Below are positions 4,763-51,188 of a stretch of 64,000 nt of DNA, piece by piece. The stretch is from Antedon bifida (taxonomy: Eukaryota; Echinodermata; Crinoidea; Comatulida; Antedonidae): NCBI GenBank assembly GCA_963402885.1, contig OY727093.1, positions 12,969,501-13,033,500 of the forward strand, written 5' to 3'. The notes under the pieces are model-generated. The model saw nothing but the letters and a program-made list of their open reading frames with translations. It was not told the DNA's origin and made no database searches. Each line of letters opens with the position of its first letter. Position 1 is the stretch's first letter. The translations under genes and the position numbers were made by a program.

Positions 4763-5873
4763 CGTGCGGACGGCGATCGGACCTTGTTTTGCCTCAATAT
4801 TTACAGCCGATATGTTTTAGGTTTAGATCGTTTAGGAGTTTGGTTGATAGGATAGGTTTTGAATCCACTGAGTTTTGTTATTTATGGGCCAATCGTTTAG
4901 TAGTAGGCTAGCTAGGCCCATGATGAGCCCCAATGTTTTAAAGTAGCCATCGTGGCATGGATTCCCAATCAGAATGGCTCTCACCCATGAAAAAAATGAT
5001 TTAGGCTAGGCCTAGCCTAGTACGTGAAGCCGATCTGTACTATTCGAGGTATAAAAATAGTATATAATTTATGACTCCGTAATCTGTACTAAATTTTGTA
5101 TTTCATTAAATGTCAAATAAATATATGCTACTACTGTTATTAATTACACTTTAGGCCTAGCTTAGAAAATCTACAAAAAATGTATTTCACAATGATCGGG
5201 TGGTCGTCGTTTGACAGGGAGAGAGTTGACAAACACAACGTACACGAGTTTGGAATACCACTGATGACGTGACTTTGTGAATATCTCATGAATATTAATG
5301 AGCTTCCCTAAGCTGCTGAAAAACAGACTTTCCATGAATTTACCCTAAAATGTATATGAAATTTTTTTTTTAAATTTCTCGTTATTACTTCTTTATTCTG
5401 ACATGTCTATATTGTTATAATATTTTTTATTTAATAAATAAACGATATTTAAAAGCAATTTTAAACCCAGAATCCCCATTTAAACGCCAGGTAGAACCTT
5501 ATTAAACTGAAAAGTTATCAAGTATATGCTACAGTAATATTTAGCTATGTTAAATCTTACTAGTTGACATGTTATACAATAATACGATACAATATTATTT
5601 CAACACACATTGACCTTAGATCATGTTATTAATATGTACTTGCTGACATTATAAATCACTGAATATACCTTAGTATGATCGACCATGGAGGTATGACAAT
5701 ACCGTTAATAGGCTACATGGCCATTAATGTGTATCATCATTAGACTTATTTTCTGGCACAATATTATTATTTTCATTTACAATAATGCCGATATAGATTA
5801 TTATTATTATTATTATTATGTTTATTTTATAATATTTCTGAAACCCTAAAACAGTACAATTTAATAATTTCAG
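4763..5873. other. 1.1-kb non-coding stretch upstream of the giant exon
   Basis: No exon with a signal peptide and a phase-1 donor could be identified. The stretch contains TAGGCCTAG-like palindromic words near 4990-5020 and a short segment near 5460-5490 resembling the inner end of the 2091-3948 repeat (TTTTAAACCCAGAATCCCC). There is an ATT microsatellite at about 5799-5819, and a splice acceptor (TTTAATAATTTCAG) ends at 5873. It is probably intron sequence of the mucin-like gene. Confidence 0.5.
5799..5819 (+). repeat. (ATT)n microsatellite
   Basis: About seven ATT triplets lie just before the acceptor of the giant exon. Confidence 0.8.
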
Positions 5874-8800
5874 AGGATATTACAACTGCCGAAGAAGAAA
5901 CAACGCAAAATTCGACAACTTTGTTTAGTACTTCAACAACAGATGCAACTACTAGTGAAGGTATAACAACCCAAAGATCAACCAAATTGTTTGACTCAAC
6001 AACAGGTGTGGAATTAACAACACAGGAAGATTCTACAACAGTTGACGTTACTACTGATGAAGGTATAACAACACAAGCCTCAACCACATTGTTTGACTCA
6101 ACAACAGGTGTGGGTATAACAACACAAGAAGGTTCTACAACAGTTGACATTACTACTGATGAAAGTATAACAACACAAGCTTCAACCACTTTGTTTGACT
6201 CAACAACAGGTGAGGGTATAACAACACAAGAAAGTTCTACAACAGTTGACGTTACTACTGATGAAGGTATAACAACACAAGCCTCAACCACATTGTTAGA
6301 TTCAACAACAGGTTTGGATGTAACAACACAGCAAGATTCTACAACAGTTGACGGTACTACTGATGAAGGTATAACAACACAAGCCTCAACCACATTGTTT
6401 GAATCAACAACAGGTGAGGGTATAACAACACGAGAAGGTTCTACAACAGTTGACGTTACTACTGATGAAGGTATAACAACACAAGCCTCAACCACATTGT
6501 TTGACTCAACAACAGGTGTGGGTATAACAACACAGCAAGATTCTACAACAGTTGACGTTACTACTGATGAAAGTATAACAACACAAGCCTCAATCACATT
6601 GTTTGACTCAACAACAGGTGTGGGTATAACGACACAGGAAGGTTCTACAACAGTTGACGTTACTACTGATGAAGGTATAACAACACAAGCCTCAACCACA
6701 TTGTTTGAATCAACAACAGGTGTTGGTATAACGACACAAGAAGATTCTACAACAGTTGACGTAACTACTGATGAAGGTATAACAGCACAAACTCCAACCA
6801 CATTGTTTGACTCAACAACAGGTTTGGATGTAACAACACAGGAACATTCTACAACAGTTGACGTTACTACTGATGAAGGTATAACAACACACGCCTCAAC
6901 CACATTGTTTGACTCAACAACAGGTGAGGGTATAACAACACAAGAAGGTTCTACAACAGTTGACGTTACTACTGATGAAGGTATAACAACACAAGCTTCA
7001 ACCACTTTGTTTGACTCAACAACAGGTGAGGGTATAACAACACAAGAAAGTTCTACAACAGTTGACGTTACTACTGATGAAGGTAAAACAACACACGCCT
7101 CAACCACATTGTTTGACTCAACAACAGGTGTGGGTATAACAACACAGCAAGATTCTACAACAGTTGACGTTACTACTGATGAAAGTATAACAACACAAGC
7201 CTCAATCACATTGTTTGACTCAACAACAGGTGTGGGTATAACGACACAGGAAGGTTCTACAACAGTTGACGTTACTACTGATGAAGGTATAACAACACAA
7301 GCCTCAACCACATTGTTTGAATCAACAACAGGTGTTGGTATAACGACACAAGAAGATTCTACAAGAGTTGACGTAACTACTGATGAAGGTATAACAGCAC
7401 AAACTCCAACCACATTGTTTGACTCAACAACAGGTTTGGATGTAACAACACAGGAACATTCTACAACAGTTGACGTTACTACTGATGAAGGTATAACAAC
7501 ACAAGCCTCAACCACATTGTTTGACTCAACAACAGGTGAGGGTATAACAACACAAGAAGGTTCTACAACAGTTGACGTTACTACTGATGAAGGTATAACA
7601 ACACACGCCTCAACCACATTGTTTGACTCAACAACAGGTGAGGGTATAACAACACAAGAAGGTTCTACAACAGTTGACGTTACTACTGATGAAGGTATAA
7701 CAACACAAGCTTCAACCACTTTGTTTGACTCAACAACAGGTGAGGGTATAACAACACAAGAAAGTTCTACAACAGTTGACGTTACTACTGATGAAGGTAA
7801 AACAACACACGCCTCAACCACATTGTTTGACTCAACAACAGGTGAGGGTATAACAACACAGGAAGGTTCTACAACAGTTGACGTTACTACTGATGAAGGT
7901 ATAACAACACAAGCCTCAACCACATTGTTTGACTCAACAACAGGTGTGGGTATAACGACACAAGAATATTCTACAACAATTGACGTTACTACTGATGAAG
8001 GTATAACAGCACAAACTTCAACCACATTGTTTGACTCAACAACCGGTTTGGATGTAACAACACAGCAAGATTCTACAACAGTTGACGTTACTACTGATGA
8101 AGGTATAACAACACAAGCCTCAACCACATTGTTTGACTCAACAACAGGTGAGGGTATAACAACACAAGAAGGTTCTACAACAGTTGACGTTACTACTGAT
8201 GAAGGTATAACAACACAAGCCTCAACCACATTGTTAGATTCAACAACAGGTTTGGATGTAACAACACAGCAAGATTCTACAACAGTTGACGGTACTAGTG
8301 ATGAAGGTATAACAACACAGGCTTCAACCACTTTGTTTGACTCAACGACAGGTTTGGATGTAACAACACAGCAAGATTCTACAACAGTTGACGTTACTAC
8401 TGATGAAGGTATAACAACACAAGCCTCAACCACATTGTTTGAATCAACAACAGGTGAGGGTATAACAACACGAGAAGGTTCTACAACAGTTGACGTTACT
8501 ACTGATGAAGGTATAACAACACAAGCCTCAACCACATTGTTTGACTCAACAACAGGTGTGGGTATAACAACACAGCAAGATTCTACAACAGTTGACGTTA
8601 CTACTGATGAAGGTATAACAGCACAAACTTCAACCACATTGTTTGACTCAACAACAGGTTTGGATGTAACAACACAGCAAGATTCTACAACAGTTGACGT
8701 TACTACTGATGAAGGTATAACAACACAAGCCTCAACCACATTGTTTGACTCAACAACAGGTGAGGGTATAACAACACAAGAAGGTTCTACAACAGTTGAC

Positions 8801-11800
8801 GTTACTACTGATGAAGGTATAACAACACAAGCCTCAACCACATTGTTAGATTCAACAACAGGTTTGGATGTAACAACACAGCAAGATTCTACAACAGTTG
8901 ACGGTACTACTGATGAAGGTATAACAACACAGGCTTCAACCACTTTGTTTGACTCAACAACAGGTTTGGATGTAACAACAAAGCAAGATTCTACAACAGT
9001 TGACGTTACTACTGATGAAGGTATAACAACACAAGCCTCAACCACATTGTTTGAATCAACAACAGGTGAGGGTATAACAACACGAGAAGGTTCTACAACA
9101 GTTGACGTTACTACTGATGGAGGTATAACAACACAAGCCTCAACCACATTGTTTGACTCAACAACAGGTGTGGGTATAACAACACAGCAAGATTCTACAA
9201 CAGTTGACGTTACTACTGATGAAAGTATAACAACACAAGCCTCAATCACATTGTTTGACTCAACAACAGGTGTGGGTATAACGACACAGGAAGGTTCTAC
9301 AACAGTTGACGTTACTACTGATGAAGGTATAACAACACAAGCTTTAACCACATTGTTTGAATCAACAACAGGTGTGGGTATAACGACACAAGAAGATTCT
9401 ACAACAGTTGACGTTACTACTGATGAAGGTATAACAGCACAAACTCCAACCACATTGTTTGATTCAACTACAGGTGTGGGTATAACAACACAGCAAGATT
9501 CTACAACAGTTGACGTTACTACTGATGAAGGTATAACAACACAAGCCTCAACCACATTGTTTGACTCAACAACAGGTGAGGGTATAACAACACAAGAAGG
9601 TTCTACAACAGTTGACGTTACTACTGATGAAGGTATAACAACACAAGCCTCAACCACATTGTTAGATTCAACAACAGGTTTGGATGTAACAACACAGCAA
9701 GATTCTACAACAGTTGACGGTACTACTGATGAAGGTATAACAACACAGGCTTCAACCACTTTGTTTGACTCAACAACAGGTTTGGATGTAACAACAAAGC
9801 AAGATTCTACAACAGTTGACGTTACTACTGATGAAGGTATAACAACACAAGCCTCAACCACATTGTTTGAATCAACAACAGGTGAGGGTATAACAACACG
9901 AGAAGGTTCTACAACAGTTGACGTTACTACTGATGGAGGTATAACAACACAAGCCTCAACCACATTGTTTGACTCAACAACAGGTGTGGGTATAACAACA
10001 CAGCAAGATTCTACAACAGTTGACGTTACTACTGATGAAAGTATAACAACACAAGCCTCAATCACATTGTTTGACTCAACAACAGGTGTGGGTATAACGA
10101 CACAGGAAGGTTCTACAACAGTTGACGTTACTACTGATGAAGGTATAACAACACACGCTTTAACCACATTGTTTGAATCAACAACAGGTGTGGGTATAAC
10201 GACACAAGAAGATTCTACAACAGTTGACGTTACTACTGATGAAGGTATAACAGCACAAACTCCAACCACATTGTTTGATTCAACTACAGGTTTGGATGTA
10301 ACAACACAGCAAGATTCTACAACAGTTGACGTTACTACTGATGAAGGTATAACAACACACGCCTCAACCACATTGTTTGACTCAACAACAGGTGAGGGTA
10401 TAACAACACAAGAAGGTTCTACAACAGTTGACGTTACTACTGATGAAGGTATAACAACACAAGCTTCAACAACTTTGTTTGACTCAACAACAGGTGAGGG
10501 TATAACAACACAAGAAAGTTCTACAACAGTTGACGTTACTACTGATGAAGGTAAAACAACACACGCCTCAACCACATTGTTTGACTCAACAACAGGTGAG
10601 GGTATAACAACACAGCAAGATTCTACAACACTTGACGTTACTACTGATGAAGGTATAACAACACAGGCCTCAACAACATTGTTTGACTCAACAACAGGTG
10701 TGGGTATAACGACACAAGAAGATTCTACAACAGTTGACGTTACTACTGATGAAGGTATAACAGCACAAACTTCAACCACATTTTTTGACTCAACAACAGG
10801 TTTGGATGTAACAACACAGCAAGATTCTACAACAGTTGACGTTACTACTGATGAAGGTATAACAACACAAGCCTCAACCACATTGTTTGACTCAACAACA
10901 GGTGAGGGTATAACAACACAAAAAGGTTCTACAACAGTTGACGTTACTACTGATGAAGGTATAACAACACAAGCCTCAACCACATTGTTTGATTCAACAA
11001 CAGGTTTGGATGTAACAACACAGCAATATTCTACAACAGTTGACGGTACTACTGATGAAGGTATAACAACACAGGCTTCAACCACTTTGTTTGACTCAAC
11101 AACAGGTTTGGATGTAACAACACAGCAAGATTCTACAACAGTTGACGTTACTACTGATGAAGGTATAACAACACAAGCCTCAACCACATTGTTTGACTCA
11201 ACAACAGGTGAGGGTATAACAACACAAGAAGGTTCTACAACAGTTGACGTTACTACTGATGAAGGTATAACAACACAAGCCTCAACCACATTGTTTGACT
11301 CAACAACAGGTGTGGGTATAACAACACAGCAAGATTCTACAACAGTTGACGTTACTACTGATGAAAGTATAACAACACAAGCCTCAACCACATTGTTTGA
11401 CTCAACAACAGGTGTGGGTATAACGACACAGGAAGGTTCTACAACAGTTGACGTTACTACTGATGAAGGTATAACAACACAAGCCTCAACCACTTTGTTT
11501 GACTCAACAACAGGTGTGGGTATAACGACACAAGAAGATTCTACAACAGTTGACGTTACTACTGATGAAGGTATAACAACACAAGCCTCAACCACATTGT
11601 TTGACTCAACAACAGGTGTGGGTATAACAACACAGCAAGATTCTACAACAGTTGACGTTACTACTGATGAAAGTATAACAACACAAGCCTCAACCACATT
11701 GTTTGACTCAACAACAGGTGTGGGTATAACGACACAGGAAGGTTCTACAACAGTTGACGTTACTACTGATGAAGGTATAACAACACAAGCCTCAACCACT

Positions 11801-23800: not shown

Positions 23801-26800
23801 ATAACAACACAGGCTTCAACCACTTTGTTTGACTCAACAACAGGTTTGGATGTAACAACACAGCAAGATTCTACAACAGTTGACGTTACTACTGATGAAG
23901 GTATAACAACACAAGCCTCAACCACATTGTTTGACTCAACAACAGGTGAGGGTATAACAACACAAGAAGGTTCTACAACAGTTGACGTTACTACTGATGA
24001 AGGTATAACATCACAAGCCTCAACCACATTGTTAGATTCAACAACAGGTTTGGATGTAACAACACAGCAAGATTCTACAACAGTTGACGGTACTAGTGAT
24101 GAAGGTATAACAACACAGGCTTCAACCACTTTGTTTGACTCAACGACAGGTTTGGATGTAACAACACAGCAAGATTCTACAACAGTTGACGTTACTACTG
24201 ATGAAGGTATAACAACACAAGCCTCAACCACATTGTTTGAATCAACAACAGGTGAGGGTATAACAACACGAGAAGGTTCTACAACAGTTGACGTTACTAC
24301 TGATGAAGGTATAACAACACAAGCCTCAACCACATTGTTTGACTCAACAACAGGTGTGGGTATAACAACAAAGCAAGATTCTACAACAGTTGACGTTACT
24401 ACTGATGAAGGTATAACAGCACAAACTTCAACTACATTGTTTGACTCAACAACAGGTTTGGATGTAACAACACAGCATGATTCTACAACAGTTGACGTTA
24501 CTACTGATGAAGGTATAACAACACAAGCCTCAACCACATTGTTTGACTCAACAACAGGTGAGGGTATAACAACACAAGAAGGTTCTACAACAGTTGACGT
24601 TACTACTGATGAAGGTATAACAACACAAGCCTCAACCACATTGTTAGATTCAACAACAGGTTTGGATGTAACAACACAGCAAGATTCTACAACAGTTTAC
24701 GGTACTACTGATGAAGGTATAACAACACAGGCTTCAACCACTTTGTTTGACTCAACAACAGGTTTGGATGTAACAACACAGCAAGATTCTACAACAGTTG
24801 ACGTTACTACTGATGAAGGTATAACAACACAAGCCTCAACCACATTGTTTGAATCAACAACAGGCGAGGGTATAACAACACGAGAAGGTTCTACAACAGT
24901 TGACGTTACTACTGATGAAGGTATAACAACACAAGCCTCAACCACATTGTTTGACTCAACAACAGGTGTGGGTATAACAACACAGCAAGATTCTACAACA
25001 GTTGACGTTACTACTGATGAAAGTATAACAACACAAGCCTCAATCACATTGTTTGACTCAACAACAGGTGTGGGTATAACGACACAGGAAGGTTCTACAA
25101 CAGTTGACGTTACTACTGATGAAGGTATAACAACACAAGCCTCAACCACATTGTTTGAATCAACAACAGGTGTGGGTATAACGACACAAGAAGATTCTAC
25201 AACAGTTGACGTTACTACTGATGAAGGTATAACAGCACAAACTCCAACCACATTGTTTGACTCAACAACAGGTTTGGACGTAACAACACAGGAACATTCT
25301 ACAACAGTTGACGTTACTACTGATGAAGGTATAACAACACAAGCCTCAACCACATTGTTTGACTCAACAACAGGTGAGGGTATAACAACACAAGAAGGTT
25401 CTACAACAGTTGACGTTACTACTGATGAAGGTATAACAACACACGCCTCAACCACATTGTTTGACTCAACAACAGGTGAGGGTATAACAACACAAGAAGG
25501 TTCTACAACAGTTGACGTTACTACTGATGAAGGTATAACAACACAAGCTTCAACCACTTTGTTTGACTCAACAACAGGTGAGGGTATAACAACACAAGAA
25601 AGTTCTACAACAGTTGACGTTACTACTGATGAAGGTAAAACAACACACGCCTCAACCACATTGTTTGACTCAACAACAGGTGAGGGTATAACAACACAGG
25701 AAGGTTCTACAACAGTTGACGTTACTACTGATGAAGGTATAACAACACAAGCCTCAACCACATTGTTTGACTCAACAACAGGTGTGGGTATAACGACACA
25801 AGAAGATTCTACAACAGTTGACGTTACTACTGATGAAGGTATAACAGCACAAACTTCAACCACATTTTTTGACTCAACAACAGGTTTGGATGTAACAACA
25901 CAGCAAGATTCTACAACAGTTGACGTTACTACTGATGAAGGTATAACGACACAAGCCTCAACCACATTGTTTGACTCAACAACAGGTGAGGGTATAACAA
26001 CACAAAAAGGTTCTACAACAGTTGACGTTACTACTGATGAAGAAATAACAACACAAGCCTCAACCACATTGTTTGATTCAACAACAGGTTTGGATGTAAC
26101 AACACAGCAAGGTTCTACAACAGTTGACGGTACTACTGATGAAGGTATAACAACACAGGCTTCAACCACTTTGTTTGACTCAACAACAGGTTTGGATGTA
26201 ACAACACAGCAAGATTCTACAACAGTTGACGTTACTACTGATGAAGGTATAACAACACAAGCCTCAACCACATTGTTTGACTCAACAACAGGTGAGGGTA
26301 TAACAACACAAGAAGGTTCTACAACAGTTGACGTTACTACTGATGAAGGTATAACAACACAAGCCTCAACCACATTGTTAGATTGAACAACAGGTTTGGA
26401 TGTAACAACACAGCAAGATTCTACAACAGTTGACGGTACTAGTGATGAAGGTATAACAACACAGGCTTCAACCACTTTGTTTGACTCAACGACAGGTTTG
26501 GATGTAACAACACAGCAAGATTCTACAACAGTTGACGTTACTACTGATGAAGGTATAACAACACAAGCCTCAACCACATTGTTTGAATCAACAACAGGTG
26601 AGGGTATAACAACACGAGAAGGTTCTACAACAGTTGACGTTACTACTGATGAAGGTATAACAACACAAGCCTCAACCACATTGTTTGACTCAACAACAGG
26701 TGTGGGTATAACAACACAGCAAGATTCTACAACAGTTGACGTTACTACTGATGAAGGTATAACAGCACAAACTTCAACCACATTGTTTGACTCAACAACA

Positions 26801-32800: not shown

Positions 32801-35800
32801 TTTTTTGACTCAACAACAGGTTTGGATGTAACAACACAGCAAGATTCTACAACAGTTGACGTTACTACTGATGAAGGTATAACAACACAAGCCTCAACCA
32901 CATTGTTTGACTCAACAACAGGTGAGGGTATAACAACACAAAAAGGTTCTACAACAGTTGACGTTACTACTGATGAAGGTATAACAACACAAGCCTCAAC
33001 CACATTGTTTGATTCAACAACAGGTTTGGATGTAACAACACAGCAAGGTTCTACAACAGTTGACGGTACTACTGATGAAGGTATAACAACACAGGCTTCA
33101 ACCACTTTGTTTGACTCAACAACAGGTTTGGATGTAACAACACAGCAAGATTCTACAACAGTTGACGTTACTACTGATGAAGGTATAACAACACAAGCCT
33201 CAACCACATTGTTTGACTCAAAAACAGGTGAGGGTATAACAACACAAGAAGGTTCTACAACAGTTGACGTTACTACTGATGAAGGTATAACAACACAAGC
33301 CTCAACCACATTGTTTGATTCAACAACAGGTTTGGATTTAACCACACAGCAAGATTCTACAACAGTTGACGTTACTACTGATGAAGGTATAACAACACAA
33401 GCCTCAATCACATTGTTTGACTCAACAACAGGTTTGGATGTAACAACACAGCAAGATTCTACAACAGTTGACGTTACTACTGATGAAGGTATAACAACAC
33501 AAGCTTCAACTACTTTGTTTGACTCAACAACAGGTGAGGGTATAACAACACAAGAAGGTTCTACAACAGTTGACGTTATTACTAATGAAGGTATAACAAC
33601 ACAAGCCTCAACCACATTGTTTGAGTCAACAACAGGTTTGGATGTAACAACACAGAAAGGTTCTACAACAGTTGACGTTACTACTGATGAAGGTATAACA
33701 ACACAAGCCTCAACCACATTCTTTGACTCAACAACAGGTGTGGGTATAACAACACAGAAAGATTCTACAACAGTTGACGTTACTACTGATGAAGGTATAA
33801 CAACACAAGCTTCAACCACTTTGTTTGACTCAACAACAGGTGAGGGTATAACAACACAAGAAGGTTCTACAACAGTTGACGTTACTACAGATGAAGGTAT
33901 AACAACACAAGCCTCAACCACATTTGTTGACTCAACAACAGGTTTGGATGTAACAACACAGCAAGATTCTACAACAGTTGGTGTTACTACTGATGAAGGT
34001 ATAACAACGCAAGCCTCAACCACATTGTTTGACTCAACAACAGGTGAGGGTATAACAACACAAGAAGGTTCTACAACAGTTGACGTTACTACTGATGAAG
34101 GTATAACAACACAAGCCTCAACCACATTGTTTGACTCAACAACAGGTTTGGATGTAACAACACAGAAAGATTCTACAACAGTTTACGTTACTACTGACGA
34201 AGGTATAACAACACAAGCCTCAACCACATTGTTTGACTCAACAACAGGTTTGGATGTAACAACACAGCAAGATTCTACAACAGTTGACGTTACTACTGAT
34301 GAAGTTATAACAACACAAGCCTCAACCACATTGTTTGACTCAACAACAGGTTTGGATGTAACAACACAGAAATATTCTACAACAGTTGACGTTACTACTG
34401 ATGAAGGTATAACAACACAAGACTCAATCACATTCTTTGACTCAACAACAGGTGTGGGTATAACAACACAGAAAGATTCTACAACAGTTGACGTTACTAC
34501 TGATGAAAGTATAACAACACAGTCTTCAACCACTTTGTTTGACTCAACAACAGGTTTGGATGTAACAACACAGCAAGATTCTACAACAGTTGACGTTACT
34601 ACTGATGAAGGTATAACAACACAAGCTTCAACCACTTTGTTTGACTCAACAGCAGGTGAGGGTATAACAACACAAGGAGGTTCTACAACAGTTGACGTTA
34701 CTACAGATGAAGGTATAACAACACAAGCCTCAACCACATTTTTTGACTCAACAACAGGTGTGGGTATAACGACACAAGAAGATTCTACAACAGTTGACGT
34801 TACTACTGATGAAGGTATAACAGCACAAACTTCAACCCCTTTTTTTAACTCAACAACAGGTTTGGATGTAACAACACAGCAAGATTCTACAACAGTTGAC
34901 GTTACTACTGATGAAGGTATAACAACACAAGCCTCAACCACATTGTTTGACTCAACAACAGGTGAGGGTATAACAACACAAAAAGGTTCTACAACATTTG
35001 ACGTTACTACTGATGAAGGTATAACAACACAAGCCTCAACCACATTGTTTGATTCAACAACAGGTTTGGATGTAACAACACAGCAAGGTTCTACAACAGT
35101 TGACGGTACTACTGATGAAGGTATAACAACACAGGCTTCAACCACTTTGTTTGACTCAACAACAGGTTTGGATGTAACAACACAGCAAGATTCTACAACA
35201 GTTGACGTTACTACTGATGAAGGTATAACAACACAAGCCTCAACCACATTGTTTGACTCAAAAACAGGTGAGGGTATAACAACACAAGAAGGTTCTACAA
35301 CAGTTGACGTTACTACTGATGAAGGTATAACAACACAAGCCTCAACCACATTGTTAGACTCAACAACAGGTTTGGATGTAACAACACAGAAAGATTCTAC
35401 AACAGTTTACGTTACTACTGACGAAGGTATAACAACACAAGCCTCAACCACATTGTTTGACTCAACAACAGGTTTGGATGTAACAACACAGCAAGATTCT
35501 ACAACAGTTGACGTTACTACTGATGAAGGTATAACAACACAAGACTCAATCACATTCTTTGACTCAACAACAGGTGTGGGTATAACAACACAGAAAGATT
35601 CTACAACAGTTGACGTTACTACTGATGAAAGTATAACAACACAGTCTTCAACCACTTTGTTTGACTCAACAACAGGTGAGGGTGTAACAACACAGCAAGA
35701 TTCTACAACAGTTGACGTTACTACTGATGAAGGTATAACAACACAAGCTTCAACCACTTTGTTTGACTCAACAGCAGGTGAGGGTATAACAACACAAGCC

Positions 35801-38800
35801 TCAACCACATTTTTTGACTCAACAACAGGTGTGGGTATAACGACACAAGAAGATTCTACAACAGTTGACGTTACTACTGATGAAGGTATAACAGCACAAA
35901 CTTCAACCACATTTTTTGACTCAACAACAGGTTTGGATGTAACAACACAGCAAGATTCTACAACAGTTGACGTTACTACTGATGAAGGTATAACAACACA
36001 AGCCTCAACCACATTGTTTGACTCAACAACAGGTGAGGGTATAACAACACAAAAAGGTTCTACAACATTTGACGTTACTACTGATGAAGGTATAACAACA
36101 CAAGCCTCAACCACATTGTTTGATTCAACAACAGGTTTGGATGTAACAACACAGCAAGGTTCTACAACAGTTGACGGTACTACTGATGAAGGTATAACAA
36201 CACAGGCTTCAACCACTTTGTTTGACTCAACAACAGGTTTGGATGTAACAACACAGCAAGATTCTACAACAGTTGACGTTACTACTGATGAAGGTATAAC
36301 AACACAAGCCTCAACCACATTGTTTGACTCAAAAACAGGTGAGGGTATAACAACACAAGAAGGTTCTACAACAGTTGACGTTACTACTGATGAAGGTATA
36401 ACAACACAAGCCTCAACCACATTGTTTGATTCAACAACAGGTTTGGATTTAACCACACAGCAAGATTCTACAACAGTTGACGTTACTACTGATGAAGGTA
36501 TAACAACACAAGCCTCAATCACATTGTTTGACTCAACAACAGGTTTGGATGTAACAACACAGCAAGATTCTACAACAGTTGACGTTACTACTGATGAAGG
36601 TATAACAACACAAGCTTCAACTACTTTGTTTGACTCAACAACAGGTGAGGGTATAACAACACAAGAAGGTTCTACAACAGTTGACGTTATTACTGATGAA
36701 GGTATAACAACACAAGCCTCAACCACATTGTTTGAGTCAACAACAGGTTTGGATGTAACAACACAGAAAGGTTCTACAACAGTTGACGTTACTACTGATG
36801 AAGGTATAACAACACAAGCCTCAACCACATTCTTTGACTCAACAACAGGTGTGGGTATAACAACACAGAAAGATTCTACAACAGTTGACGTTACTACTGA
36901 TGAAGGTATAACAACACAAGCTTCAATCACTTTGTTTGACTCAACAACAGGTGAGGGTATAACAACACAAGAAGGTTCTACAACAGTTGACGTTACTACA
37001 GATGAAGGTATAACAACACAAGCCTCAACCACATTGTTTGACTCAACAACGGGTTTGGATGTAACAAAACAAGAAGGTTCTACAACAGTTGACGTTATTA
37101 CAGATGAAGGTATAACAACACAAGCCTCAACCACATTGTTTGACTCAACAACAGGTTTGGATGTAACAACACAGAAAGATTCTACAACAGTTGACGTTAC
37201 TACTGATGAAGGTATAACAACACAAGACTCAACCACATTCTTTGACTCAACAACAGGTGTGGGTATAACAACACAAGAAGGTTCTACAACAGTTGACGTT
37301 ACTACAGATGAAGGTATAACAACACAAGCCTCAACAACATTTTTTGACTCAACAACAGGTGAGGGTATAACAACACAAGAAGGTTCTACAACAGTTGACG
37401 TTACTACTGATGAAGGTATAACACAAGCCACAACCACATTGTTTGATTCAACTACAGGTTTGGATGTAACAACACAGCAAGATTCTACAACAGTTGACGT
37501 TACTACTGATGAAGGTATAACAACACAAGCATCAACCACATTGTTTGACTCAACAACAGGTGTGGGTTTTACGACACAAGAAGATTCTACAACAGTTGAC
37601 GTTACTACAGATGAAGGTATAACAACACAAGCCTCAACCACATTGTTTGACTCAACAACAGGTTTGGATGTAACAACACAGCAAGATTCTACAACAGTTG
37701 ACGTTACTATTGATGAAGGTATAACAACACAAGCTTCAACCACTTTGTTTGACTCAACAACAGGTGAGGGTATAACAACACAAGAAGGTTCTACAACAGT
37801 TGACGTTACTACAGATGAAGGTATAACAACACAAGCCTCAACCACATTGTTTGACTCAACAACAGGTTTGGATGTAACAACACAAGAAGGTTCTACAACA
37901 GTTGACGTTATTACAGATGAAGGTATAACAACACAAGCCTCAACCACATTGTTTGACTCAACAACAGGTTTGGATGTAACAACACAGAAAGATTCTACAA
38001 CAGTTGACGTTACTACTGATGAAGGTATAACAACACAAGCCTCAACCACATTGTTTGACTCAACAACAGGTTTGGATGTAACAACACAGAAAGATTCTAC
38101 AACAGTTGACGTTACTACTGATGAAGGTATAACAACACAAGACTCAACCACATTCTTTGACTCAACAACAGGTGTGGGTATAACAACACAAGAAGGTTCT
38201 ACAACAGTTGACGTTACTACAGATGAAGGTATAACAACACAAGCCTCAACAACATTTTTTGACTCAACAACAGGTGAGGGTATAACAACACAAGAAGGTT
38301 CTACAACAGTTGACGTTACTACCGATGAAGGTACAACACAAGCCACAACCACATTGTTTGATTCAACTACAGGTTTGGATGTAACAACACAGCAAGATTC
38401 TACAACAGTTGACGTTACTACTGATGAAGGTATAACAACACAAGCATCAACCACATTGTTTGACTCAACAACAGGTGTGGGTTTAACGACACAAGAAGAT
38501 TTTACAACAGTTGACGTTACTACTGATGAAGGTATAACAGCACAAGCTTCAACCACATTGTTTGACTCAACAACAGGTTTGGATGTAACAACACAGCAAG
38601 ATTCTACAACAGTTGACGTTACTACTGATGAAGGTATAACAACACAAGCCTCAACCACATTGTTTGACTCAACAACAGGTGAGGGTATAACAACACAAGA
38701 AGGTTCTACAACAGTTGACGTTACTACTGATGAAGGTATAACAACACAAGCCACAACCACATTGTTTGATTCAACTTCAGGTTTGGATGTAACAACACAG

Positions 38801-41800
38801 CAAGATTCTACAACAGTTGACGTTACTACTGATGAAGTTATAACAACACAAGCCTCAACCACATTGTTTGACTCAACAACAGGTTTGGATGTAACAACAC
38901 AGAAAGATTCTACAACAGTTGACGTTACTACTGATGAAGGTATAACAACACAAGCTTCAACCACTTTGTTTGACTCAACAACAGGTTTGGATGTAACAGC
39001 ACAGCAAGATTCTACAACAGTTGACGTTACTACTGATGAAGGTATAACAACACAAGCCTCAACAACATTTTTTGACTCAACAACAGGTTTGGATGTAACA
39101 GCACAGCAAGATTCTACAACAGTTGACGTTACTACTGATGAAGGTATAACAACACAAGCTTCAACCACTTTGTTTGACTCAACAACAGGTTTGGATGTAA
39201 CAGCACAGCAAGATTCTACAACAGTTGACGTTACTACAGATGAAGGTATAACAACACAAGCCTCAACAACATTTTTTGACTCAACAACAGGTGAGGGTAT
39301 AACAACACCAGAAGGTTCTACAACAGTTGACGTTACTACTGATGAAGGTATAACAACACAAGTCACAACCACAATATTTGATTCAACTACAGGTTTGGAT
39401 GTAACAACACAGCAAGATTCTACAACAGTTGACGTTACTACTGATGAAGTTATAACAACAAAAGCCTCAACCACATTGTTTGTCTCAACAACAGGTTTGG
39501 ATGTAACAACACAGAAAGATTCTACAACAGTTGACGTTACTATTGATGAAGGTATAACAACACAAGCTTCAACCACTTTGTTTGACTCAACAACAGGTGA
39601 GGGTATAACAACACAAGAAGGTTCTACAACAGTTGACGTTACTACAGATGAAGGTATAACAACACAAGCCTCAACCACATTGTTTGACTCAACAACAGGT
39701 TTGGATGTAACAACACAGCAATATTCTACAACAGTTGACGTTACTACTGATGAAGGTATAACAACACAGGCTTCAGCCACTTTGTTTGACTCAACAACAG
39801 GTGTGGGTATAACAACACAGGAAGGTTCTACAACAGTTGACGTTACTACTGATGAAGGTATAACAACACAAGCCTCAACCACATTGTTTGACTCAACAAC
39901 AGGTGTGGGTTTAACGACACAAGAAGATTCTACAACAGTTGACGTTACTACTGATGAAGGTATAACAGCACAAGCTTCAACCACATTGTTTGACTCAACA
40001 ACAGGTTTGGATGTAACAACACAGCAAGATTCTACAACAGTTGACGTTACTACTGATGAAGGTATAACAACACAACCTTCAACCACCTTGTTTGACTCAA
40101 CAACAGGTGTTGGTATAACGACACAGGAAGATTCTACAACAGTTGACGTTACTACTGACGAAGGAATAACAACACAGGCTTCAACCACTTTGTTTGACTC
40201 AACAACAGGTGTGGGTATAACAACACAGGAAGGTTCTACAACAGTTGACGTTACTACTGATGAAGGTATAACAACACAAGCTTCAATCACATTATTTGAC
40301 TCAACAACAGATGAGGGTAGAACAACACAAGAAGGTTCTACAATAGTTGACGTTACTACTGATGGAGGTATAACAACACAAGCCTCAACCACATTGTTTG
40401 ACTCAACAACAGATGAGGGTAGAACAACACAAGAAGGTTCTACAATAGTTGACGTTAGTACTGCTGGAGGTATAACAACACAAGCTTCAACCACATTGTT
40501 TGACTCAACAACAGGTTTGGATGTAACAACACAGAAAGATTCTACAACAGTTGACGACGTTACTACTGATGAAAGTATAACAACACAGTCTCCAACCACT
40601 TTGTTTGACTCAACAACAGGTGAGGGTATAACAACACAAGAAGGTTCTACAACAGTTGACGTTACTACTGATGAAGGTATAACAACACAAGCCTCAACCA
40701 CATTGTTTGACTCAACAACAGGTGTTGGTATAACTACACAGGAAGATTCTACAACAGTTGACGTTACTACTGATGAAGGTATAACAACACAAGCCTCAAC
40801 CACATTGTTTGACTCTACAACAGGTGAGGGTATAACAACACAAGAAGATTCTACAACAGTTGACGTTACTGCTGATGAAGGTATAACAACACAAGCCTCA
40901 ACCACATTGTTTGACTCAACAACAGGTGAGGGTATAACGACACAAGAAGATTCTACAACAGTTGACGTTACTACTGATGAAGGTATAACAGCACAAGCTT
41001 CAACCACATTGTTTGACTCAACAACAGGTTTGGATGTAACAACACAGGAAGGTTCTACAACAGTTGACGTTACTACTGATGAAGGTATAACAACACAAGC
41101 TTCAATCACATTGTTTGACTCAACAACAGGTGTGGGTATAACAACACAGGAAGGTTCCACAACAGTTGACGTTACTACTGATGAAGGTATAACAGCACAA
41201 ACCTCAACCACATTGTTTGACTCAACAACAGGTTTGGATGTAACAACACAGCAAGATTCTACAACAGTTGACGTTAGTACTGATGAAGGTATAACAACAC
41301 AAGCCTCAACCACATTGATTAACTCAACAACAGGTGAGGGTAGAACAACACAAGAACGTTCTACAATAGTGGACGTTACTACTGATGAAGGTATAACAAC
41401 ACAAGCCTCAACCACATTGTTTGACTCAACAACAGGTTTGGATGTAACAACACAGCAAGATTCTACAACAGTTGACGTTACTACTGATGAAGGTATAACA
41501 ACACAAGCCTCAACCACATTGTTTGACTCAACAACAGGTGTGGGTTTAACGACACAAGAAGATTTTACAACAGTTGACGATACTACTGATGAAGGTATAA
41601 CAACACAAGCCACAACCACATTGTTTGATTCAACTTCAGGTTTGGATGTAACAACACAGCAAGATTCTACAACAGTTGACGTTACTACTGATGAAGTTAT
41701 AACAACACAAGCTTCAACCACATTGTTTGACTCAACAACAGGTTTGGATGTAACAACACAGCAAGATTCTACAACAGTTGACGTTACTACTGATGAAGTT

Positions 41801-44800
41801 ATAACAACACAAGCTTCAACCACTTTGTTTGACTCAACAACAGGTGTGGGTTTAACGACACAAGAAGATTTTACAACAGTTGACGTTACTACTGATGAAG
41901 GTATAACAACACAAGCCACAACCACATTGTTTGATTCAACTTCAGGTGTGGGTATAACAACACAGGAAGGTTCCACAACAGTTGACGTTACTACTGATGA
42001 AGGTATAACAGCACAAACCTCAACCACATTGTTTGACTCAACAACAGGTTTGGATGTAACAACACAGCAAGATTCTACAACAGTTGACGTTAGTACTGAT
42101 GAAGGTATAACAACACAAGCCTCAACCACATTGATTAACTCAACAACAGGTGAGGGTAGAACAACACAAGAACGTTCTACAATAGTGGACGTTACTACTG
42201 ATGAAGGTATAACAACACAAGCCTCAACCACATTGTTTGACTCAACAACAGGTTTGGATGTAACAACACAGGAAGGTTCTACAACAGTTGACGTTACTAC
42301 TGATGAAGGTATAACAACACAAGCTTCAATCACATTGTTTGACTCAACAACAGGTGTGGGTATAACAACACAGGAAGGTTCCACAACAGTTGACGTTACT
42401 ACTGATGAAGGTATAACAGCACAAACCTCAACCACATTGTTTGACTCAACAACAGGTTTGGATGTAACAACACAGCAAGATTCTACAACAGTTGACGTTA
42501 GTACTGATGAAGGTATAACAACACAAGCCTCAACCACATTGATTAACTCAACAACAGGTGAGGGTAGAACAACACAAGAACGTTCTACAATAGTGGACGT
42601 TACTACTGATGAAGGTATAACAACACAAGCCTCAACCACATTGTTTGACTCAACAACAGGTTTGGATGTAACAACACAGCAAGATTCTACAACAGTTGAC
42701 GTTACTACTGATGAAGGTATAACAACACAAGCCTCAACCACATTGTTTGACTCAACAACAGGTGTGGGTTTAACGACACAAGAAGATTTTACAACAGTTG
42801 ACGATACTACTGATGAAGGTATAACAACACAAGCCACAACCACATTGTTTGATTCAACTTCAGGTTTGGATGTAACAACACAGCAAGATTCTACAACAGT
42901 TGACGTTACTACTGATGAAGTTATAACAACACAAGCTTCAACCACATTGTTTGACTCAACAACAGGTTTGGATGTAACAACACAGCAAGATTCTACAACA
43001 GTTGACGTTACTACTGATGAAGTTATAACAACACAAGCTTCAACCACTTTGTTTGACTCAACAACAGGTGTGGGTTTAACGACACAAGAAGATTTTACAA
43101 CAGTTGACGTTACTACTGATGAAGGTATAACAACACAAGCCACAACCACATTGTTTGATTCAACTTCAGGTGTGGGTATAACAACACAGGAAGGTTCCAC
43201 AACAGTTGACGTTACTACTGATGAAGGTATAACAGCACAAACCTCAACCACATTGTTTGACTCAACAACAGGTTTGGATGTAACAACACAGCAAGATTCT
43301 ACAACAGTTGACGTTAGTACTGATGAAGGTATAACAACACAAGCCTCAACCACATTGATTAACTCAACAACAGGTGAGGGTAGAACAACACAAGAACGTT
43401 CTACAATAGTGGACGTTACTACTGATGAAGGTATAACAACACAAGCCTCAACCACATTGTTTGACTCAACAACAGGTTTGGATGTAACAACACAGCAAGA
43501 TTCTACAACAGTTGACGTTACTACTGATGAAGGTATAACAACACAAGCCTCAACCACATTGTTTGACTCAACAACAGGTGTGGGTTTAACGACACAAGAA
43601 GATTTTACAACAGTTGACGTTACTACTGATGAAGGTATAACAACACAAGCCACAACCACATTGTTTGATTCAACTTCAGGTTTGGATGTAACAACACAGC
43701 AAGATTCTACAACAGTTGACGTTACTACTGATGAAGTTATAACAACACAAGCTTCAACCACATTGTTTGACTCAACAACAGGTTTGGATGTAACAACACA
43801 GCAAGATTCTACAACAGTTGACGTTACTACTGATGAAGTTATAACAACACAAGCTTCAACCACTTTGTTTGACTCAACAACAGGTGTGGGTTTAACGACA
43901 CAAGAAGATTTTACAACAGTTGACGTTACTACTGATGAAGGTATAACAACACAAGCCACAACCACATTGTTTGATTCAACTTCAGGTTTGGATGTAACAA
44001 CACAGCAAGATTTTACAACAGTTGACGTTACTACTGATGAAGGTATAACAGCACAAGCTTCAACCACATTGTTTGACTCAACAACAGGTTTGGATGTAAC
44101 AACACAGCAAGATTCTACAACAGTTGACGTTACTACTGATGAAGGTATAACAACACAAGCCTCAACCACATTGTTTGACTCAACAACAGGTGTGGGTTTA
44201 ACGACACAAGAAGATTTTACAACAGTTGACGTTACTACTGATGAAGGTATAACAACACAAGCCACAACCACATTGTTTGATTCAACTTCAGGTTTGGATG
44301 TAACAACACAGCAAGATTTTACAACAGTTGACGTTACTACTGATGAAGGTATAACAGCACAAGCTTCAACCACATTGTTTGACTCAACAACAGGTTTGGA
44401 TGTAACAAAACAGCAAGATTCTACAACAGTTGACGTTACTACTGATGAAGTTATAACAACACAAGCTTCGACCACTTTGTTTGACTCAACAACAGGTGAG
44501 GGTATAACAACACAAGAAGGTTCTACAACAGTTGACGTTACTACAGATGAAGGTATAACAACACAAGCCTCAACCACATTGTTTGACTCAACAACAGGTT
44601 TTGATGTAACAACACAGGAAGATTCTACAACATTTGACGTTATTACTGAAGAAGGTATAACAACACAAGCTTCAACCACATTGTTTGACTCAACAACAGG
44701 TTTGGATGTAACAACACAGCAAGATTCTACAACAGTTGACGTTACTACTGATGAAGGTATAACAACACAAGCCTCAACCACTTTGTTTGACTCAACAACA

Positions 44801-47800
44801 GGTGAGGGTATAACAACACAAGAAGGTTCTACAACAGTTGACGTTACTACAGATGAAGGTATAACAACACAAGCCTCAACCACATTGTTTGACTCAACAA
44901 CAGGTTTTGATGTAACAACACAGGAAGATTCTACAACATTTGACGTTATTACTGAAGAAGGTATAACAACACAAGCTTCAACCACATTGTTTGACTCAAC
45001 AACAGGTTTGGATGTAACAACACAGCAAGATTCTACAACAGTTGACGTTACTACTGATGAAGGTATAACAACACAAGCTTCAACTACATTGTTTGACTCA
45101 ACAACAGGTGTGGGTATAACAACACAGGAAGATTCTACAACAGTTGATGTTACTACTGATGAAGGTAGAACAACACAAGCTTCAACCACTTTGTTTGACT
45201 CAACAACAGGTGAGGGTATAACAACACAGGAAGGTTCTACAACAGTTGACGTTACTACTGATGAAGGTATAACAACACAAGCTTCAGCCACTTTGTTTGA
45301 CTCAACAACAGGTGAGGGTATAACAACACAGGAAGGTTCTACAACAGTTGACGTTACTACTGATGAAGGTATAACAACACAAGCTTCGACCACTTTGTTT
45401 GACTCAACAACAGGTGAGGGTATAACAACACAAGAAGGTTCTACAACAGTTGACGTTACTACAGATGAAGGTATAACAACACAAGCCTCAACCACATTGT
45501 TTGACTCAACAACAGGTTTTGATGTAACAACACAGGAAGATTCTACAACATTTGACGTTATTACTGAAGAAGGTATAACAACACAAGCTTCAACCACATT
45601 GTTTGACTCAACAACAGGTTTGGATGTAACAACACAGCAAGATTCTACAACAGTTGACGTTACTACTGATGAAGGTATAACAACACAAGCCTCAACCACT
45701 TTGTTTGACTCAACAACAGGTGAGGGTATAACAACACAAGAAGGTTCTACAACAGTTGACGTTACTACAGATGAAGGTATAACAACACAAGCCTCAACCA
45801 CATTGTTTGACTCAACAACAGGTTTTGATGTAACAACACAGGAAGATTCTACAACATTTGACGTTATTACTGAAGAAGGTATAACAACACAAGCTTCAAC
45901 CACATTGTTTGACTCAACAACAGGTTTGGATGTAACAACACAGCAAGATTCTACAACAGTTGACGTTACTACTGATGAAGGTATAACAACACAAGCTTCA
46001 ACTACATTGTTTGACTCAACAACAGGTGTGGGTATAACAACACAGGAAGATTCTACAACAGTTGATGTTACTACTGATGAAGGTAGAACAACACAAGCTT
46101 CAACCACTTTGTTTGACTCAACAACAGGTGAGGGTATAACAACACAGGAAGGTTCTACAACAGTTGACGTTACTACTGATGAAGGTATAACAACACAAGC
46201 TTCAGCCACTTTGTTTCACTCAACAACAGGTGAGGGTATAACAACACAGGAAGGTTCTACAACAGTTGACGTTACTACTGATGAAGGTATAACAACACAG
46301 GATTCAATCACTTTGTTTGACTCAACAACAGGTGAGGGTATAACAACACAGCAAGATTCTACAACAGTTGACGTTACTACTGATGAAGGTATAACAACAC
46401 AAGCTTCAATCACTTTGTTTGACTCAACAACAAGTGAAGGTATAACGACACAGGATTTAATCACTTTGTTTGACTCAACAACAGGAGAGAGTAAAACAAC
46501 ACAAGAAGGTTCTACAACAGTTGACGTTACTACTGATGAAGTTATAACAACACAGGATTCAATCACTTTGTTTGACTCAACAACAGGTGAGGGTATAACA
46601 ACACAGCAAGATTCTACAACAGTTGACGTTACTACTGATGAAGGTATAACAACACAAGCTTCAATCACTTTGTTTGACTCAACAACAAGTGAAGGTATAA
46701 CAACACAAGAAAGTTCTACAACAGTTGACGTTACTACTGATGAAGGTAAAACAACACAAGCCTCAACCACATTTTTTGACTCAACAACCGGTTTGGATGT
46801 AACAACACAGCAAGATTCTACAACAGTTGACGTTACTACTGATGAAGGTATAACAACACAAGCTTCAGCCACTTTGTTTGACTCAACAACAGGTGAGGGT
46901 ATAACAACACATGAAGGTTCTACAACAGTTGACGTTACTACTGATGAAGGTATAACAACACAAGCTTCAATCACTTTGTTTGACTCAACAACAGGTGAGG
47001 GTATAACAACACAAGAAGGTTCTACAACAGTTGACGTTACTACTGATGAAGGTATAACAACACAAGCTTCAACCACTTTGTTTGACTCAACAACAGGTGA
47101 GGGTATAACAACACAAGAAGGTTCTTCAACAGTTGACGTTAGTACTGATGAAGGTATAACAACACAAGCCTCATCCACATTGTTTGACTCAACAACAGGT
47201 GTGGGTATAACGACACAGGAAGATTCTACAACAGTTGACGTTACTACTGATGAAGGTAAAACAACACAAGCTTCAACCACTTTGTTTGACTCAACAACAG
47301 GTGTGGGTATAACAACACAGGAAGATTCTACAACAGTTGACGTTATTACTGATGAATTTATAACAACACAAGCTTCAACTACATTGTTTGACTCAACAAC
47401 AGGTGTGGGTATAACAACACAGGAAGATTCTACTACAGTTGATGTTACTACTGATGAAGGTAGAACAACACAAGCTTCAACCACTTTGTTTGACTCAACA
47501 ACAGGTGAGGGTATAACAACACAGGAAGGTTCTACAACAGTTGACGTTACTACTGATGAAGGTATAACAACACAAGCTTCAATCACTTTGTTTGACTCAA
47601 CAACAAGTGAAGGTATAACGACACAGGATTTAATCACTTTGTTTGACTCAACAACAGGAGAGGGTAAAACAACACAAGAAGGTTCTACAACAGTTGACGT
47701 TACTACTGATGAAGGTATAACAACACAGGATTCAATCACTTTGTTTGACTCAACAACAGGTGAGGGTATAACAACACAGCAAGATTCTACAACAGTTGAC

Positions 47801-50800
47801 GTTACTACTGATGAAGGTATAACAACACAAGCTTCAATCACTTTGTTTGACTCAACAACAAGTGAAGGTATAACAACACAAGAAAGTTCTACAATAGTTG
47901 ACGTTACTACTGATGAAGGTAAAACAACACAAGCCTCAACCACATTTTTTGACTCAACAACCGGTTTGGATGTAACAACACAGCAAGATTCTACAACAGT
48001 TGACGTTACTACTGATGAAGGTATAACAACACAAGCTTCAGCCACTTTGTTTGACTCAACAACAGGTGAGGGTATAACAACACATGAAGGTTCTACAACA
48101 GTTGACGTTACTACTGATGAAGGTATAACAACACAAGCTTCAATCACTTTGTTTGACTCAACAACAGGTGAGGGTATAACAACACAAGAAGGTTCTACAA
48201 CAGTTGACGTTACTACTGATGAAGGTATAACAACACAAGCTTCAACCACTTTGTTTGACTCAACAACAGGTGAGGGTATAACAACACAAGAAGGTTCTTC
48301 AACAGTTGACGTTAGTACTGATGAAGGTATAACAACACAAGCCTCATCCACATTGTTTGACTCAACAACAGGTGTGGGTATAACGACACAGGAAGATTCT
48401 ACAACAGTTGACGTTACTACTGATGAAGGTATAACAACACAAGCCTTAACCACATTGTTTGACTCAACAACAGGTGAGGGTATAACAACACAGCAAGATT
48501 CTACAACAGTTGACGTTACTACTGATGAAGGTAAAACAACACAAGCTTCAACCACTTTGTTTGACTCAACAACAGGTGTGGGTATAACAACACAGGAAGA
48601 TTCTACAACAGTTGACGTTACTACTGATGAACGTATAACAACACAAGCTTCAACCACTTTGTTTGACTCAACAACAGGTGAGGGTATAACAACACAAGAA
48701 GGTTCTACAACAGTTCACGTTACTACTGATGAAGGTATAACAACACAAGCTTCAACTACATTGTTTGACTCAACAACAGGTGTGGGTATAACAGCACAGG
48801 AAGATTCTACAACAGTTGATGTTACTACTGATGAAGGTAGAACAACACAAGCTTCAACCACTTTGTTTGACTCAACAACAGGTGAGGGTATAACAACACA
48901 GGAAGGTTCTACAACAGTTGACGTTACTACTGATGAAGGTATAACAACACAAGCTTCAGCCACTTTGTTTGACTCAACAACAGGTGTGGGTATAACGACA
49001 CAGGAAGATTCTACAACAGTTGACGTTACTACTGATGAAGGTATAACAACACAAGCCTCAACCACATTGTTTGACTCAACAACAGGTGAGGGTATAACAA
49101 CACAGGAAGATTCTACAACAGTTGATGTTACTACTGATGAAGGTATAAGAACACACGCCTCAACCACTTTGTTTGACTCAACAACAAGTGAAGGTATAAC
49201 AACACAAGAAAGTTCTACAACAGTTGACGTTACTACTGATGAAGGTATAACAACACATGCTTCAGCCACTTTGTTTGACTCAACAACAGGTGTGGGTATA
49301 ACGACACAGGAAGATTCTACAACAGTTGACGTTACTACTGATGAAGGTATAACAACACAAGCCTCAACCTCATTGTTTGACTCAACAACAGGTGAGGGTA
49401 TAACAACAAAGCAAGATTCTACAACAGTTGACGTTAATACTGATGAAGGTATAACAACACAAGCCTCAACCTCATTGTTTGACTCAACAACAGGTGAGGG
49501 TATAACAACAAAGCAAGATTCTACAACAGTTGACGTTACTACTGATGAAGTTATAACAACACACGCCTCAACCACATTGTTTGACTCAACAACAGGTGTG
49601 GCTATAACAACACACGAAGATTCTACAACAGTTGACGTTACTACTGATGAAGGTATAACAACACACGCCTCAACCACATTGTTTGACTCAACAACAGTTG
49701 AGGGTATAACAACACAAGAAAATTCTACAACAGTTGACGTTACTACTGATGAAGGTATAACAACACAAGCTTCAACCACATTGTTTGACTCAACAACAGG
49801 TTTGGATGTAACAACACAGCAAGATTCTACAACAGTTGACGTTACTACTGATGAAGGTATAACAGCACAAGCTTCAACCACATTGTTTGACTCAACAACA
49901 GGTTTGGATGTAACAACACAGCAATATTCTACAACAGTTGACGTTACTACTGGTGAAGGTATAACAGCACAAGCTTCAACCACATTGTTTGACTCAACAA
50001 CAGGTTTGGATGTAGCAACACAGCAAGATTCTACAACAGTTGACGTTACTACTGATGAAGGTATAACAACACAAGCTTCAACCACATTGTTTGACTCAAC
50101 AACAGGTTTGGATGTAGCAACACAGCAAGATTCTACAACAGTTGACGTTACTACTGATGAAGGTATAACAGCACAAGCTTCAACCACATTGTTTGACTCA
50201 ACAATAGGTTTGGATATAACAACACAGCAAGATTCTACAACAGTTGACGTTACTACTGATGGAGGTATAACAACGCAAAGCTCAACCACATTGTTTGACT
50301 TAACAACAGGTGTGGGTATAACAACACAGAAAGATTCTACAACAGTTGACGTTACTACTGATGAAGGTATAACAACAGAAGCCTTAACCACATTGTTTGA
50401 CTCAACAACAGGTTTGGATGTAACAACACAGAAAGATTCTACAACAGTTGACGTTACTACTGATGAAGGTATAACAACACAAGCTTCAATCACTTTGCTT
50501 GATTCAACAACAGGTCCGGATACAACAACACAGCAAGAATCTACAACAGTTGATGTATCTACTGATGAAGGTATAACAGCACAACCTTCAACCACTTTTT
50601 TTGACTCAACAACAGGTGTGGGTATAACCACACAGGAGCATTCTACAACAGTTGATGTATCTACTGATGAAGGTATAACAGCACAACCTTCAACCACTTT
50701 GTTTGATTCAACAACAGGTGTGGTTTTAACCACACAGGGGGATACTACAACAGTTGACGTAACTACTGATGAAAGTATAACAACCACATTGTTTGACTCA

Positions 50801-51188
50801 ACATCAGGTTTGGATATAACAACACAGGAAGGTTCTACAACAGTTGACATTACTACTGGTAAAGGTATAACAATCCAAACTTCAACCACTTTGTTTGACT
50901 CAACAACAGGTTTGGATAAAACAACACTTGCAGACCCTACATCAGTTGTACTTTCTACAACCATATTCGATTCAACAACGGGTGTTGATATGTCAACTGC
51001 AGATGTATCTACAATAGATGATTTAATTACTGGTACAACTGTCATTAATGATTTAACAACCATGTATTCTACAACTGTACCTGATTTAACCAGTATAGAA
51101 ACGACATATGTCACCACGGCTGAATATACTCGTAAAGAGACCTTCTCAACATCTGAAATGTTATCTACCATCTTTACAACTATTCCAG
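5874..51188 (+). CDS. Giant exon encoding the Thr/Ser-rich tandem-repeat (mucin) domain
   Basis: The acceptor TTTAATAATTTCAG precedes 5874 and the donor GTAGGG follows 51188; both ends are phase 1. The exon is 45,315 bp with 15,104 whole codons, open except for TGA at 26384-26386. About 440 copies of a 34-residue unit (pattern [17 protein letters not shown] then [17 protein letters not shown]) fill it. About 44% of residues are Thr or Ser, so heavy O-glycosylation is expected. Asp and Glu make it acidic. Pro is rare, Cys occurs only in two units (about 28591 and 28897), and Lys/Arg are sparse. The first codons ([16 protein letters not shown]) are a degenerate half-unit; the last 250 bp or so (from about 50930) decay into unique Ser/Thr-rich sequence. 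In-frame ATG codons are lacking in the main array, so it cannot be a self-standing gene. Confidence 0.9.

Follow-up and report, generated by a model that had tools for sequence, protein, structure and literature searches.

A giant repetitive exon is predicted in the crinoid Antedon bifida in a window of 64,000 nucleotides, the whole stretch of DNA analysed, which corresponds to C1:12969501-13033500 (C1 being one of the 27 contigs of the 315.6-Mb genome). In all likelihood, it is the central exon of a gene for a tethered MUC4-type mucin that is intact in a second copy located upstream on the same contig (copy A) and carries one nonsense codon in the copy contained in the window (copy B). Positions are 1-based in the window unless preceded by a contig name, and a slash in a splice site marks the exon boundary.

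Frame and composition of the giant exon

The exon occupies positions 5874-51188 of the plus strand (45,315 bp) and includes 15,104 full codons with a split codon at each end. The plus frame has no stops over 5786-26383 and 26387-51202; the sole in-frame TGA of copy B, at 26384-26386, is codon 6,837 of 15,104 and is a sense codon in copy A. The exon is preceded by the acceptor ...taataatttcag/AGG at 5874 and closed by the donor ATTCCAG/gtaggg after 51188, both in phase 1. The exon that follows (51329-51454, plus strand, phase 1 in and out), which encodes the first LDL-receptor class A domain (LDLa), begins in phase with the array frame. These frame and phase checks confirm the description, given in an earlier note on this DNA, of one frame open but for a single TGA between a phase-1 acceptor and donor and continuing in phase into domain exons. 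As the giant exon is symmetric (phase 1-1), skipping of the whole exon would also be in frame.

Tandem Repeats Finder revealed a 102-bp tandem unit over 5948-50948 with 89-91% matches. Cyclic codon alignment divided the copy B exon into 448 units, 432 of which are complete at exactly 34 codons, and the remaining units, array ends included, deviate in length only by whole codons; hence no frameshift is seen across 45 kb. The 34-residue unit consists of two 17-residue halves that are alike at 9 of 17 residues. Threonine accounts for 34.5% and serine for 9.1% of the 15,104 codons, together 44%.

Copy A, 171 kb upstream of copy B, has its array frame in a single open reading frame (ORF) of 15,754 codons without any stop (C1:12804551-12851812). 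Its exon is 47,160 bp long, with 465 units and 15,719 full codons.

Selection on the frame was assessed using a minimum-spanning tree of the 229 distinct complete units from both copies, with 41 codons that had several changes excluded; the steps of the tree are partly non-independent, since the repeats recombine. Stop-making changes were depleted in the sense frame (1 seen versus 12.1 expected, P=6e-5) and not in the antisense frame (24 versus 20.9). Thus, the frame looks selected, and the array is not simply a repeat that happens to be open. A conservative count, in which each distinct variant was taken once, gave weaker support (stops 2/9 versus synonymous 49/81, Fisher P=0.037), the antisense control being 10/19 for stops versus 36/53 for synonymous variants (P=0.27).

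Eight residue classes were tested on the tree changes. Changes of the Ser/Thr class (82 versus 111.3 expected, P=5e-4) and of the Pro class (6 versus 21.8, P=5e-5) were depleted, those of the Asp/Glu class (86 versus 56.3) and of Gly (63 versus 36.2) were in excess, and those of Gln/Asn were slightly above expectation (48 versus 35.7); changes of the Lys/Arg, Cys and hydrophobic classes were near expectation. In the distinct-variant count, Ser/Thr loss gave 36/68 versus 99/145 for other non-synonymous variants (P=0.034). Residue change that is near neutral overall, combined with fewer Ser/Thr- and Pro-altering events, suggests that the mucin is selected for composition.

Artificial expansion or collapse of the array by the assembler was judged unlikely. 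Exact self-repeats reach at most 1,759 bp in copy B and 2,998 bp in copy A, none thus exceeding 3 kb, and these lengths, well below that of long reads, disfavour an artefact. Pfam matches of a 500-residue piece of the array to DSBA and Tautomerase were rejected as repeat artefacts, with 0 stretches passing individually, and Rfam gave nothing at gathering scores. On the antisense strand, the array has an open stretch of up to 3,602 codons (35410-46215, minus strand).

Domain exons, signal exon and paralogues

A candidate signal-peptide exon is located 12 kb upstream, beyond the window, at C1:12963274-12963373. It begins with ATG, ends with a phase-1 donor (CAG/GTAAAT) and encodes MEETFGNIKRIYKHVLLLLLICNVISIIRLTSA; it was the top-scoring candidate of a scan, as judged by hydropathy score, and recurs unchanged, with its phase-1 donor, in copy A at C1:12778899.

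The region downstream of the array was modelled using a home-made gene finder and comparison with a diverged paralogue. Out of 95 predicted exons, 48 (~2,157 amino acids) were kept by eye, tiny or transposon-derived predictions being dropped. The predicted product contains, in order, two LDLa and two Sushi domains, EGF, NIDO, AMOP, VWD and C8-3_MUC4 domains, a long run of EGF_CA domains and a SEA-like domain, and ends with a hydrophobic membrane stretch followed by a tail. All of the following features are on the plus strand. The first LDLa exon is followed by predicted exons for the second LDLa domain (52322-52438), the Sushi domains (52682-52855 and 53120-53290) and two EGF-type domains (53765-53878 and 54123-54245). 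The NIDO region (54360-55964; E=2.7e-27, 96.4 bits versus a Pfam cut-off of 25) and the AMOP region (56022-56921; E=8.6e-12, 45.8 bits versus 25) each comprise several exons and have approximate ends. The VWD region (57007-58134; E=6.4e-14, 53 bits versus 22.9), the ends of which are also approximate, includes a GDPH motif at 57018-57029. The AMOP and VWD matches appeared only once exon boundaries had been read off the raw frames and were missed in a cruder gene model. A predicted C8-3_MUC4 exon (58331-58588; Pfam E=6.4e-8) precedes a predicted run of EGF and calcium-binding EGF exons (59323-61459), and a further EGF exon is found at 63739-63861.

The Sushi, LDLa and EGF domains also score above their Pfam cut-offs. 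The gene extends past the window to ~C1:13039376 with more EGF domains, the SEA-like domain and, near C1:13038964-13039247, the hydrophobic membrane stretch, which was judged by eye, and the tail. The matches to NIDO, AMOP, VWD and C8-3_MUC4, all above the Pfam cut-offs, bear out the earlier proposal that mucin repeats are attached to a MUC4-type C-terminus. The gene is built like those of MUC4-type tethered mucins, and its product probably functions as they do.

A relative of the gene is located in inverted orientation on the minus strand of C1, with a signal-like exon near 12961008, an array at ~12936272-12953952 and domain exons below that. It is largely collinear with the giant gene (the crude models of the two are 36.5% identical in their main alignment). 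It has its own giant Thr/Ser-rich exon, the same phase-1 junction between array and LDLa exon and, by eye, the same type of 34-residue repeat. The shared junction and repeat type indicate that the giant exon probably predates the split between the two paralogues. The exon of the inverted paralogue is broken by a 3.8-kb retroelement insertion; an ORF of 994 amino acids inserted in this exon (C1:12948884-12951865, minus strand), endonuclease/reverse-transcriptase-like by eye, divides it so that 4,111 and 515 codons are left in the open parts. A duplicate of the inverted paralogue is present at C1:12750486. A NIDO-AMOP query of the genome gave at least 24 matches, which are exons rather than genes, on C1, C7, C8, C9, C11 and C16.

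Further observations were made near the locus and in the genome. An intronic insertion of ~2 kb that is missing from copy A (61590-63629) includes reverse-transcriptase/GIY-YIG-looking fragments and is presumably Penelope-like. Two 21-bp minisatellites at 1004-1193 and 1528-1830 have mutually reverse-complementary units, and a young dispersed repeat of ~184 bp, with at least 34 genomic copies at 97-98% identity, is located just upstream of the giant exon (5300-5483). On the mitochondrial contig (C27, L031), ND1 is encoded on the strand opposite to that of COX1, COX2 and an ATP6-like frame, COX1 being labelled by Pfam and the others by eye. COX1 stays open when TGA is read as Trp, and Ser suits AGA/AGG at conserved positions of COX1 and ND1; Trp for TGA and Ser for AGA/AGG is the pattern of invertebrate bilaterians and does not support a cnidarian origin, which the sea-anemone literature on MUC4-like mucins had suggested. 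A search for the innexin family yielded 3 weak matches, and one for the GFP family was uninformative, as neither the genome nor its 14 controls gave a match.

The two copies and turnover of the array

The window forms part of a probable head-to-tail duplication at C1:12714690-13069085, the unit of which (~173-181 kb) carries both the giant mucin gene and the inverted paralogue. Marker searches placed unit 1 at ~12714690-12895947 and unit 2 from there to ~13069085, and markers near the ends of the duplication showed 97-99% identity between the units. The junction at C1:12895945-12895948 has ~4 bp common to both sides. The flanks of copies A and B are 97-100% identical in aligned stretches, with insertions present in one or the other copy; most blocks beside the two arrays are 99.5-100% identical, and the region of the signal exon is 99.0% identical.

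Unit-by-unit alignment of the two arrays gave 293 paired units that differ by ~0.24% (72 differing bases), and left unpaired 172 of the 465 units in copy A and 155 of the 448 units in copy B, the longest unpaired block spanning 167 units. The arrays are thus rearranged in large blocks relative to each other, and the many unpaired blocks, compared with ~0.24% base change, indicate that gain and loss of blocks far outpaces base substitution.

Owing to the TGA at codon 6,837, the product of copy B as assembled would be truncated ahead of every folded domain. Its transcript could be subject to nonsense-mediated decay, and copy B probably represents a null allele or paralogue, unless it serves as a source of shorter products. 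Copy A is the intact giant gene and could encode the full product, with a size of roughly 17,900 amino acids (array exon plus kept predicted exons). From the earlier proposal of a single 45-kb coding exon of about 15,100 codons, the exon itself is supported by its anatomy, the intact copy A and the largely collinear paralogue, whereas uninterrupted coding does not hold for copy B as assembled.

Alternative readings and comparison with other mucins

Several observations weigh against a functional mucin encoded by the array. Changes on the tree are near neutral (synonymous 105 versus 107.5 expected, non-synonymous 289 versus 275.4), and the differences between the arrays of copies A and B (synonymous 17, non-synonymous 48 and stop 1) fit a neutral expectation of 18.2, 45.8 and 2.0, respectively. 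In a hand-picked list of 47 predicted domain exons, 12 of 6,359 bases differ between the copies (0.189%), 10 of them non-synonymously and 2 synonymously, versus 27 of 13,909 bases elsewhere in the aligned region (0.194%); as the domain exons are as diverged as the remainder, recent constraint is not visible. Proline makes up only 0.15% of the array, which is unusual for a mucin of the proline-threonine-serine type. The SEA-like region scored 23.5 and 21.5 bits, below the Pfam cut-off of 26.4, and the paralogue piece gave no Pfam match to SEA. A conserved upstream exon, sought by frame comparison between the gene and the inverted paralogue, yielded nothing convincing. The array could be thought of as a non-coding minisatellite beside an unrelated gene, with a period that is a multiple of three and a unit open by chance. 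The near-neutral residue change fits such a minisatellite, as does the scarcity of stops in the antisense frame too (11 in copy A and 14 in copy B). However, stops are depleted in the sense frame only, the observed length changes are of whole codons, phase-matched splice sites flank the array on both sides, copy A lacks any stop, and the layout recurs in a diverged paralogue. A non-coding minisatellite is largely refuted by these data and is most improbable.

It is also conceivable, though unlikely, that the array is coding and is normally spliced internally, with inner donors joined to the LDLa exon and the mature exon shorter and variable. With a generic matrix that was not trained on this species, the scores are 11.2 for the terminal donor and 7.2 for the first acceptor; a further point against the single-exon reading is that 136 CAG/GTGAGG sites in the copy B array score 13.2, above the terminal donor, and that 8 acceptor-like sites in the array score at or above the real acceptor. 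Another 113 sites, CAG/GTGTGG, score 10.4. These donor-like sites, 249 in copy B and 273 in copy A, are all in phase 1, so that splicing from any of them to the LDLa exon would preserve the frame, and 124 of the 249 in copy B precede the TGA; the symmetry of the exon likewise permits in-frame skipping of the whole. On the other hand, acceptors in the array equal to the real one are few, the generic origin of the matrix limits the weight of the donor scores, and the array-wide depletion of stops implies that most of the array is translated at least sometimes. The related idea that the repeat serves as a splicing ruler, a single array yielding mucins of stepwise different lengths, all in frame, by choice of donor, is likewise given a low probability. 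If it were true, copy B could bypass its nonsense codon via an earlier donor, and the genome would contain two giant mucin genes in tandem with product length set by array turnover and donor choice. As to the two copies, they may instead be two haplotypes of one locus placed consecutively by the assembler. This is less likely than not; in its favour, identity of 97-100% in aligned stretches, presence or absence of insertions and strongly differing arrays resemble those of two alleles. A true tandem duplication fits better, considering the head-to-tail join with ~4 bp shared and the absence of any N in the 273 kb retrieved around both copies; moreover, joining of the contig would require reads that cross the junction. 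In both cases, two versions of the giant exon exist.

In the preferred reading, a tethered MUC4-type mucin, the signal-peptide exon would be spliced in phase 1 onto the giant exon, transcribed as one exon. The latter would encode a long acidic Thr/Ser-rich rod almost without cysteine or proline, probably O-glycosylated, as suggested by its composition. At an assumed 0.25-0.36 nm per residue, the extended rod would measure ~3.8-5.4 micrometres. The rod would be joined to the LDLa-Sushi-EGF-NIDO-AMOP-VWD-C8-EGF modules, the SEA-like domain, the hydrophobic membrane stretch and the short tail, and the product may act as a surface brush or barrier. Putative cleavage at GDPH in the VWD domain could yield a shed alpha part and a tethered beta part. 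The array would expand and contract through in-register duplication of blocks, selection maintaining an open frame and dense Ser/Thr with no fixed sequence. The gene appears to have been duplicated in tandem recently, leaving copy A open throughout the exon and copy B with one nonsense codon.

Human MUC12 is not known to have the MUC4 domain set. Human MUC4, in the parts of PMC5354666 and PMC8660890 that describe it, has a signal peptide, Thr/Ser repeats, NIDO, AMOP, VWD, EGF and a transmembrane segment, and GDPH is its putative cleavage motif (PMC8660890). The gene described here shares this order, including the large repeat region and the GDPH motif in VWD, and also the Pfam C8-3_MUC4 domain. 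It differs from MUC4 by its LDLa and Sushi domains ahead of NIDO, its long run of EGF_CA domains, its SEA-like domain, its proline-poor 34-residue repeat and its exon of 45-47 kb, as compared with 27,843 bp in the longest human MUC4 allele (PMC13345508, a 2026 preprint). MUC4-like mucins of Actinia tenebrosa, as presented in section 13 of PMC9080433, likewise combine NIDO, AMOP and VWD with variable extra domains and variable low-complexity regions, and some of them have a C-terminal SEA domain. They are known from transcriptomes and have CUB, ZP and FN3 as N-terminal extras, and that section mentions no giant exon. Drosophila Muc14A, which spans 52.6 kb, is similarly a mucin gene of very large size, rich in repeats and containing EGF-like regions; the passages on it in PMC2515642 and PMC7108745 describe neither its exon structure nor any NIDO, AMOP or VWD. 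A parallel in exon size is the variable-number-tandem-repeat exon of human MUC12, also a giant repetitive coding exon in a tethered mucin, which shows extreme length variation, with a predicted product of up to 23,080 amino acids, and has a size range of 55,233 bp, implying an exon of >55 kb, so that it is longer in some people than the exon described here (PMC13345508). Given the predicted size of MUC12 and the MUC4 alleles of up to 27,843 bp, the giant exon is no record, and the statement in the earlier note that it is twice the size of the largest human exon and would give one of the longest polypeptides known was too strong. No paper among the literature matches listed was recognised as describing this gene, which may still have been published.

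Exons of 45-47 kb, approaching the size reported for human MUC12, thus probably occur in an invertebrate too. The ~0.2% substitution in the gene region, set against the many unpaired units, provides a direct measure of the speed of array turnover, and the comparison of the two copies indicates what selection keeps in a mucin, namely an open frame and Ser/Thr density rather than sequence.

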